Below the pieces are notes generated by a model, which worked only from the letters and a program-made list of their open reading frames with translations, made no database searches and had not been told where the DNA came from. From NCBI RefSeq assembly GCF_963920485.1, contig NZ_OY986431.1:1984001-2048000 (forward strand): a stretch of 64,000 bases of DNA, in the 5' to 3' direction. The DNA comes from Cyanobium usitatum str. Tous. Its GTDB lineage: Bacteria; Cyanobacteriota; Cyanobacteriia; PCC-6307; Cyanobiaceae. Both the position numbers and the translations under genes were made by a program. The stretch's first letter is position 1; each line of letters begins with the position of its first letter. Shown piece by piece: positions 51,427-52,718 of the stretch.

Positions 51427-51479
51427 AGGTGCCGACGGCAGGCAAGAGCTCAATCGTATGCATGCCCGCAACACCGGCA

Positions 51480-51524
51480 ATAACCGTGCAATTTGGCACC
51501 TATGCTGCAGAAATGCACGGTTAT
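51480..51524 (+). promoter_or_regulatory. Inverted repeat over a divergent promoter and start codon
   Basis: ATAACCGTGCA (51480-51490) and TGCACGGTTAT (51514-51524) form a perfect 11-bp inverted repeat with a 23-base spacer. A TATGCT hexamer (51501-51506) in the spacer lies 6 bases before the ATPase ATG at 51513, so the mRNA could be leaderless. On the other strand TTGCCG (51480-51475) and TACGAT (51458-51453), 16 bases apart, could drive the radical-SAM gene. The repeat is a candidate operator; its protein partner is unknown. Confidence 0.55.
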
Positions 51525-52667
51525 CTGCCCAGGCAAGCCCAGCTGGCGCTCAGCAAGGCCCTGAACCGGGCGCCGGCGGCCCTGCTGCTGGGACCCCGGC
51601 AGTGCGGCAAATCAACGCTGGCGCGCCAACTATTGGCCGAGCGCGGTGATGCCGTATTGCTCGACTTGCAGGACCGGAGCGATCGAGCCCGCCTGCAGGA
51701 GCCGGAGCTGTTCTTCGAGGCCCACCGCCACGACCTGGTGTGCCTCGACGAAATCCAGCTACTGCCAGATTTTTTCAATCTGCTGCGCGCCGAGATCGAC
51801 CGGGATCGCCGGCCCGGCCGGTTCCTACTGCTGGGCTCGGCCTCCGGCCCGCTGCTGCACCAGAGCCAGGAAAGCCTGGCCGGCCGCATCGCCCAGGTGG
51901 AGCTCACCCCGTTTCTGCTGAGCGAAGTGGCCCCCGCCATCCGCTGGCAGCAGCTGTGGCTGCGCGGCGGCTTCCCCGAGAGCCTGCTGGCTAGTGCAGA
52001 CGACGACAGCATCGACTGGCGCGAGGATTTCATCCGCACCTTCCTGGGCCGCGACATCGCCGCCCTGGAGCTCGGGCTGCCGCTGCCATTGATGGAGCGG
52101 CTGTGGCGGTTGCTGGCCCACCTCCAGGGTCAAACCCTCAATGCCAGCCGGCTAGCGGGCCTGCTGGATCTCAGCAGCGCCCGGTTGCAGAAGCTGCTGG
52201 CGGCGCTGGAGCACACCTTCATGCTGCGGCGTCTACCGCCCCTGGAGGCCAACCTGAGCAAGAGACTGGTGCACTCCCCCAAGCTCTACCTGCGCGACAG
52301 CGGCCTGCTGCACAACCTGCTCGGCATCGAGAGCTACGACGATCTGCTGGCCCACCCGCAGGCCGGTGAGAGCTGGGAGGGTTTCGTGATTGAGCAGCTG
52401 ATCGCCGCCCATCCGCGCTGGCGTCCCCATTTCCTGCGCACCAGCCACGGCGCCGAACTCGACCTGGTGCTGGAGCGGGGCCAGCGCCGGCGGGTCTATG
52501 AAATCAAGCTCTCCAAAGCACCGAAGCTCTCCCGCGGCTTCCATGAGCTGGTGGAGCAGCTCCAACCGGAGCAGGCCTCACTGATCGCCCCGGTGGAAAC
52601 GAGCTTCGAGATCCGCCCGGGCATCTGGGTGCAACCGCCCCTGGAGGTGGGCCAGCAACCCGCATAG
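51513..52667 (+). CDS. DUF4143-type AAA ATPase
   Basis: 384 residues from the ATG at 51513 (MHGYLPRQAQLALSKALNRA); the frame is open to 51429. The AAA_14 ATPase domain has Walker A LLLGPRQCGKSTLARQLL, Walker B DLVCLDEIQLLPD and a sensor-type LLLGSASGPLLHQS. A winged-helix-like middle (RLAGLLDLSSARLQKLLAAL) leads to the DUF4143 nuclease-like end, with GLLHNLLGI, WEGFVIEQLI and HGAELDLVLERGQRRRVYEI, a PD-(D/E)XK-like motif. The family is patchy across prokaryotes, often presumed mobile or defence-linked, without a proven role. Base composition matches the neighbours. Confidence 0.85.
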   Translation: MHGYLPRQAQLALSKALNRAPAALLLGPRQCGKSTLARQLLAERGDAVLLDLQDRSDRARLQEPELFFEAHRHDLVCLDEIQLLPDFFNLLRAEIDRDRRPGRFLLLGSASGPLLHQSQESLAGRIAQVELTPFLLSEVAPAIRWQQLWLRGGFPESLLASADDDSIDWREDFIRTFLGRDIAALELGLPLPLMERLWRLLAHLQGQTLNASRLAGLLDLSSARLQKLLAALEHTFMLRRLPPLEANLSKRLVHSPKLYLRDSGLLHNLLGIESYDDLLAHPQAGESWEGFVIEQLIAAHPRWRPHFLRTSHGAELDLVLERGQRRRVYEIKLSKAPKLSRGFHELVEQLQPEQASLIAPVETSFEIRPGIWVQPPLEVGQQPA

Positions 52668-52718
52668 GACAATCGCCCCATCACTCACCGGGCCCGGCGG
52701 CGGCCCACACCGCGCACC

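Follow-up and report, generated by a model that had tools for sequence, protein, structure and literature searches.

Which molecule reads a perfect inverted repeat that straddles the promoter and start codon of a DUF4143 ATPase gene? The sequence-only reading of the window (the whole 64,000-nt stretch of DNA analyzed here) had left several answers: one regulator that could shut both this gene and a divergent radical-SAM gene, the nuclease-like ATPase itself, or an RNA hairpin over the start.

The repeat and the gene it precedes

Segments 51480-51490 (ATAACCGTGCA) and 51514-51524 (TGCACGGTTAT) form a perfect 11-bp inverted repeat with a 23-nt spacer, and imperfect pairing reaches outward to about 51476-51528. 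The arms, the spacer, TATGCT at 51501-51506 and the ATG at 51513 were all found exactly as first read, and domain matches confirmed the neighbors as a divergent radical SAM + DUF2344 gene and a right-hand AAA_14 + DUF4143 gene. The full pattern occurs once in the window even when up to three mismatches are allowed (shuffles predict 0) and once in the 2.66-Mb genome containing the window. Neither arm has a second exact copy anywhere in that genome, on which ground a dispersed repeat was rejected. By itself the repeat is unremarkable, because simple arithmetic gives about 0.6 perfect 11-bp inverted repeats with a spacer of up to 40 nt per 64 kb by chance; its weight rests on conservation. The locus is laid out as follows.

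51480 to 51524, no strand assigned: 45-bp palindromic element, two 22-bp half-sites centered on 51502; proposed operator of the DUF4143 gene, with the same element at homologues
51480 to 51490, plus strand: left outer arm, ATAACCGTGCA; specificity base N is G at 51486
51495 to 51498, plus strand: left inner specificity bases, element positions 15-18, tracking residues 221-223
51501 to 51506, plus strand: putative -10 box TATGCT, 6 nt before the ATG; predicted +1 at 51513, leaderless
51506 to 51509, minus strand: right inner specificity bases, element positions 26-29, tracking residues 221-223
51513 to 52667, plus strand: AAA_14-DUF4143 ATPase/nuclease-like protein P0001, 384 aa, PADLOC PDC-S01
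51514 to 51524, minus strand: right outer arm, ATAACCGTGCA on this strand; mirror of N at 51518; codons 1-4 covered
51573 to 51929, plus strand: AAA_14 ATPase domain, residues 21-139, Walker A K33, Walker B D79-E80
52083 to 52235, plus strand: winged helix, residues 191-241, recognition helix 222-234; residues 221-223 at 52173-52181
52422 to 52508, plus strand: PD-(D/E)XK-like core, residues 304-332; His312 at 52446-52448

P0001 matches the profiles PF13635 (E = 4.6e-38) and PF13173 (E = 1.3e-25) and the PADLOC PDC-S01 models PDLC04790/04789 (E = 1.2e-86 and 3e-43). PDC-S01 has been described as an ATPase fused to a PD-(D/E)XK-type domain and as the fourth most common defense system across prokaryotes, with antiphage experiments pending (PMC12988326). 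Across 53 sequences K33, D79, E80, E315, D317 and K332 are invariant and E330 is nearly so. The AlphaFold2 model of P0001 (mean pLDDT, 91) has a fold consistent with a PD-(D/E)XK-like domain; a PDB match, 1xmx at rank 3, is weakly informative. Residues 221-223 fall at the N-terminal end of the winged-helix recognition helix, and residue 312 is predicted to form the turn between strands 304-310 and 315-322, just before E315-x-D317 and E330-x-K332.

Conservation of the palindrome and its promoter

Upstream regions of DUF4143 homologues were compared, the check that the sequence-only reading had proposed, and the arms proved to be conserved. In a different genus of the family, orthologues with 86% aa identity have TAACCATGCA-23-TGCATGGTTA at the equivalent site, with the central G-C pair of the window arms replaced by A-T on both sides, and compensated changes among orthologues give CCGTGCA/TGCACGG versus CCATGCA/TGCATGG. 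Upstream of a paralogue in the window's own genome (49% identical) stands ATCCTTGCA-23-TGCAAGGAT. Among 80 homologues drawn from a bacterial and archaeal genome collection (43 to 95% identity to P0001), a strong upstream inverted repeat was present in 36 of the 76 that were testable, versus 4 in shuffled sequence. A profile walk located the element at 84 of 87 AAA_14-DUF4143 loci from several phyla (82 scored above the profile threshold; the other two, L085 and L086, have a 24-nt spacer), its carriers including Burkholderiales, Rhodocyclales, Nitrospirota, Bacteroidota and Planctomycetota. Nine of 10 plasmid homologues sampled, alpha- and gammaproteobacterial ones included, also have it; the tenth, from Thermus, has a degenerate form. 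The consensus reads CCNTGCAAWTT, inner bases, and the mirror image (AAWWTGCANGG), and the ATG lies at or close to the right end. Spacing between the TGCA cores is 23 bp, with rare exceptions of 24 (L085, L086) and 25 (L198). Across 201 family genomes examined, the exact pattern was confined to sites beside DUF4143 genes, and a genome-wide restriction-type site was rejected on this evidence. On viral contigs a protein scan with P0001 gave no match, and DNA-only pattern scans gave 47; 5 of these (3 distinct elements) begin a DUF4143 gene, the 4 that reach residue 312 have Ala there and base T in the element, and the remainder look like chance or redundant viral sequence.

A lone, well-preserved, near-exact palindrome is present without a DUF4143 gene in two species of one genus (L157:2433-2477 and L158:2350-2394), where it adjoins what is, by eye, a probable Fic-protein remnant. 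In genome G140 (L162:1615-1980) an intact palindrome is followed by a gene of which only the first ~110 codons match (82 to 85%), the open frame then running on into other sequence as a possible fusion. An Agrobacterium plasmid (L202:1850-1910) has lost 946 bp of the gene and retains the palindrome and the 3' end; many Thermus plasmids retain just the 3' part of the DUF4143 gene. More distant DUF4143 subfamilies (~30 to 40% identity; L013, L017, L020, L075, L076 and L201:9854-11074) have different upstream palindromes, some over the start region. Because these subfamilies carry palindromes of their own, self-operators may be general in the DUF4143 family.

Fifty distinct sequences with the ATG at element position 41 were aligned for the promoter. 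In this register -11 is A, -7 is T and -34/-33 is TG in all 50, as expected if the palindrome overlies a promoter of the sigma70 type in which the spacer measures 17 bp and transcription starts at the A of the ATG. Since the predicted +1 falls on this A and the distance from -10 box to ATG is conserved, the transcript is probably leaderless, as had been suggested for the window. The window's clade has its ATG at element position 33, with promoter and ATG shifted by 8 bp relative to the palindrome. Here TAnnnT stands at -12 to -7 in 12 of the 16 sequences of the window's start register, relatives having TAAAAT, TATAAT, TAAGAT or TACACT. The TATGCT box 6 bases before the ATG was thus read correctly, and elsewhere in the family a corresponding box keeps the same distance from the ATG. 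Because promoter and ATG are displaced in the window's clade, the palindrome is more than promoter sequence; it stays constant while the promoter slides and is therefore maintained by something other than RNA polymerase.

Coevolution with the DUF4143 protein

All 45 element positions were scanned against 377 protein columns (16,965 pairs) in 91 gene-element pairs. Both measures placed the pairing of element position 6, the N of CCNTGCA, with residue 312 first (mutual information, 1.35; co-change p = 4e-8). Mirror position 38 with the same residue came second by mutual information (1.18), followed by position 27 with residue 223 (1.17), for which mirror position 17 was also high (1.02). In the residue-base table, a mapping partly read from the same data, T goes with Ala in 44 of 50 cases, G with His in 24 of 27 and Thr in 3, and A with Asn in 13 of 14 and Gln in 1. 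Newly fetched sequences obeyed the code (Ala:T in seven, Thr:G in Azotobacter with a spacer of 25) and added the fourth base: Spirosoma and a Rhizobium pair Asp with C, and in them the neighboring T is also C. Of 101 left half-sites, 100 follow the code, and the one that does not (L138) fits it on its right half; among 101 right half-sites 93 follow it, one of the 8 misses being an alignment artifact (L085). By parsimony there are 9 base steps, 10 residue-class steps and 10 joint steps, and therefore every base change coincides with a residue-class change. When traits were simulated on the tree, 1 of 4,000 runs reached the observed mutual information in its best column and 0 did so in column 312; by simple branch co-change, residue 312 ranked top in one tree and not in an enlarged one.

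At the inner bases, Lys223 was paired with GG in seven of seven cases. Of the other motifs at residues 221-223, SGQ occurs with TCC/ACC, xHT mostly with GAG, and SAP mostly with GAA or AAA. The outer and inner modules vary independently, since SGQ accompanies Ala312 and base T in the Rhodobacterales and His312 and base G in the Burkholderiales. The two close paralogues in the window's genome differ in both specificities. On this comparative evidence the palindrome is coevolving with the DUF4143 protein at residues 312 and 221-223, and the earlier suggestion that the ATPase itself recognizes the site gains strong support.

Comparison of the loci thus brings out a conserved element, a conserved promoter-to-ATG spacing and an amino acid-base coevolution; we infer that a two-fold symmetric oligomer of the AAA_14-DUF4143 protein would occupy the 45-bp palindrome. 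Each half-site would be read at two points: its inner bases by residues 221-223, where the recognition helix begins, and the N of CCNTGCA by the turn at residue 312 that precedes the PD-(D/E)XK-like motif. Binding would block transcription, because the site covers the core promoter and the leaderless start codon, and the gene would hold itself off until the ATPase changes state, for example when an invader is sensed. That the protein recognizes its own palindrome appears very likely from the coevolution; that repression is the purpose of this recognition is a good deal less certain, though probable. The palindrome is, in our assessment, probably an operator by which the protein, bound to its own promoter, would regulate itself. 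A distant Thermus family member was reported to be induced under the combination of a plasmid and Argonaute (PMC4406477). This gene is TT_P0211 (from its position probably TT_RS11170); it falls in a distant subfamily and lacks a clear element, so that its induction is compatible with autoregulation and speaks weakly for it.

Alternative readings and known systems

An RNA hairpin over the start codon, limiting translation, would be favored by the strong predicted fold of the repeat (-26.8 kcal/mol, z = -6.1) and by the up to 22 contiguous pairs found in some homologues, but its left arm would lie upstream of the predicted +1. Pairing is also uneven across 85 distinct elements: position 17 pairs in 78, by all four pair types, and positions 11, 12, 19 and 21 in just 29 to 49. 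Mismatches (87 G-T versus 63 A-C) lack the strong skew expected of an RNA helix, and a contiguous helix kept by compensatory change inside the transcript was not found, since pairing is position specific and the left arm falls outside the predicted transcript. Coevolution with the protein fits DNA binding instead, and we regard the hairpin as extremely improbable. Binding by a separate host regulator that controls the DUF4143 gene, with or without the radical-SAM gene, is likewise very unlikely. Repressor sites do usually take the form of palindromes over promoters, and the left arm does touch TTGCCG upstream of the radical-SAM gene, sharing one base (51480) with this minus-strand hexamer. However, members of the genus without DUF4143 keep the radical-SAM gene and a conserved GATCGTATG box, and the palindrome is absent from their radical-SAM junction; the palindrome is thus not the regulatory site of that gene. 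Across phyla it accompanies DUF4143 beside unrelated genes, and it coevolves with residues of the DUF4143 protein. The idea that one regulator serves both genes therefore finds no support, and divergent co-regulation was rejected because gene-free relatives have no palindrome.

The junction itself shows further features. The minus-strand radical-SAM gene probably starts at GTG 51426 and not at the listed TTG 51480, and ATCGTA (minus-strand TACGAT, 51453-51458), which is present at all genus junctions read, with or without DUF4143, looks like its -10 box. At the other end (52655-52680), the DUF4143 stop codon TAG lies inside CATAGGACAAT, a stretch also found before dapL in relatives without the gene. 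Because they share it, the DUF4143 gene appears to have been inserted (or lost) with its end flush with the dapL promoter. In some genus members (L177, L181, L185) dapL is separated from the radical-SAM or DUF4143 gene by a further small gene, AbrB-like by eye, so that the junction upstream of dapL may be an insertion hot spot.

The nuclease-like domain raises a different prospect, that the palindrome is a substrate which this domain nicks or cuts, for self-exclusion of incoming copies of the module or as a step in mobilization. Cleavage is conceivable because the residue that would read the outer base has conserved catalytic residues as neighbors: residue 312 is three residues from E315 of the conserved E-x-D...E-x-K motif. 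Homologues occur on many plasmids, often beside recombinases or replication genes; the DUF4143 gene is patchy at its chromosomal site, and PADLOC lists the family as a defense candidate. Retention of the catalytic residues suggests a nuclease and not a plain repressor, no other DUF4143-controlled promoter explains the retained catalytic site under the operator reading, and the gene-less palindrome that persists in two species also tells against that reading. Cutting its own promoter would, however, destroy the gene unless tightly controlled, the exact site has no other copies in family genomes, and neither a conserved second end nor a flush boundary was found. Gene-free rSAM-dapL junctions are present in the genus, with a possible but very short CCCGC duplication, and plasmid comparisons for empty sites gave partial or internal deletions instead of clean boundaries. 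An operator accounts for the promoter overlap without extra assumptions, and the substrate reading seems unlikely to us. The corresponding view of PDC-S01, as a sequence-specific nuclease that targets its own promoter palindrome and excludes DNA of the same module (or moves itself), residue 312 contributing to specificity, is similarly doubtful.

For PDC-S01, a candidate defense family reported to be among the commonest in prokaryotes (PMC12988326), the papers searched gave no description of a DNA target; the comparison supplies a probable one, its own promoter. P0001 agrees with that family in its model matches and in joining an ATPase to a PD-(D/E)XK-type domain; the promoter palindrome and recognition code described here were not found in the literature searched for DUF4143 and PDC-S01. 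The amino acid-base code is readable, and part of it lies in a nuclease-like and not a transcription-factor domain. With it, operators could be predicted for many homologues, and it offers a hint of how paralogues that share a genome stay insulated from each other. An AAA+ ATPase fused to HTH and RecB nuclease domains, arCOG03166, has been suggested to be a defense or plasmid gene (PMC4158269). In its published description the domain order matches that of P0001.

Autoregulatory palindromic operators are familiar from transcription factors and toxin-antitoxin systems. The element described here resembles them in being a two-fold symmetric site over the core promoter of its apparent reader, and in the divergence of specificities between paralogues. 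It differs in that the reader would be an AAA-type ATPase with a nuclease-like domain, in half-site cores 27 bp apart, and in one contact that apparently comes from the nuclease-like domain. At position 3 of zinc fingers, Asn specifies A, His G, Asp C, and Ala, Ser or Val T. Residue 312 shows chemically matching Ala, Asn, His and Asp residue-base pairs, although the two are not homologous: residue 312 belongs to a PD-(D/E)XK-like turn and not to a zinc-finger helix.
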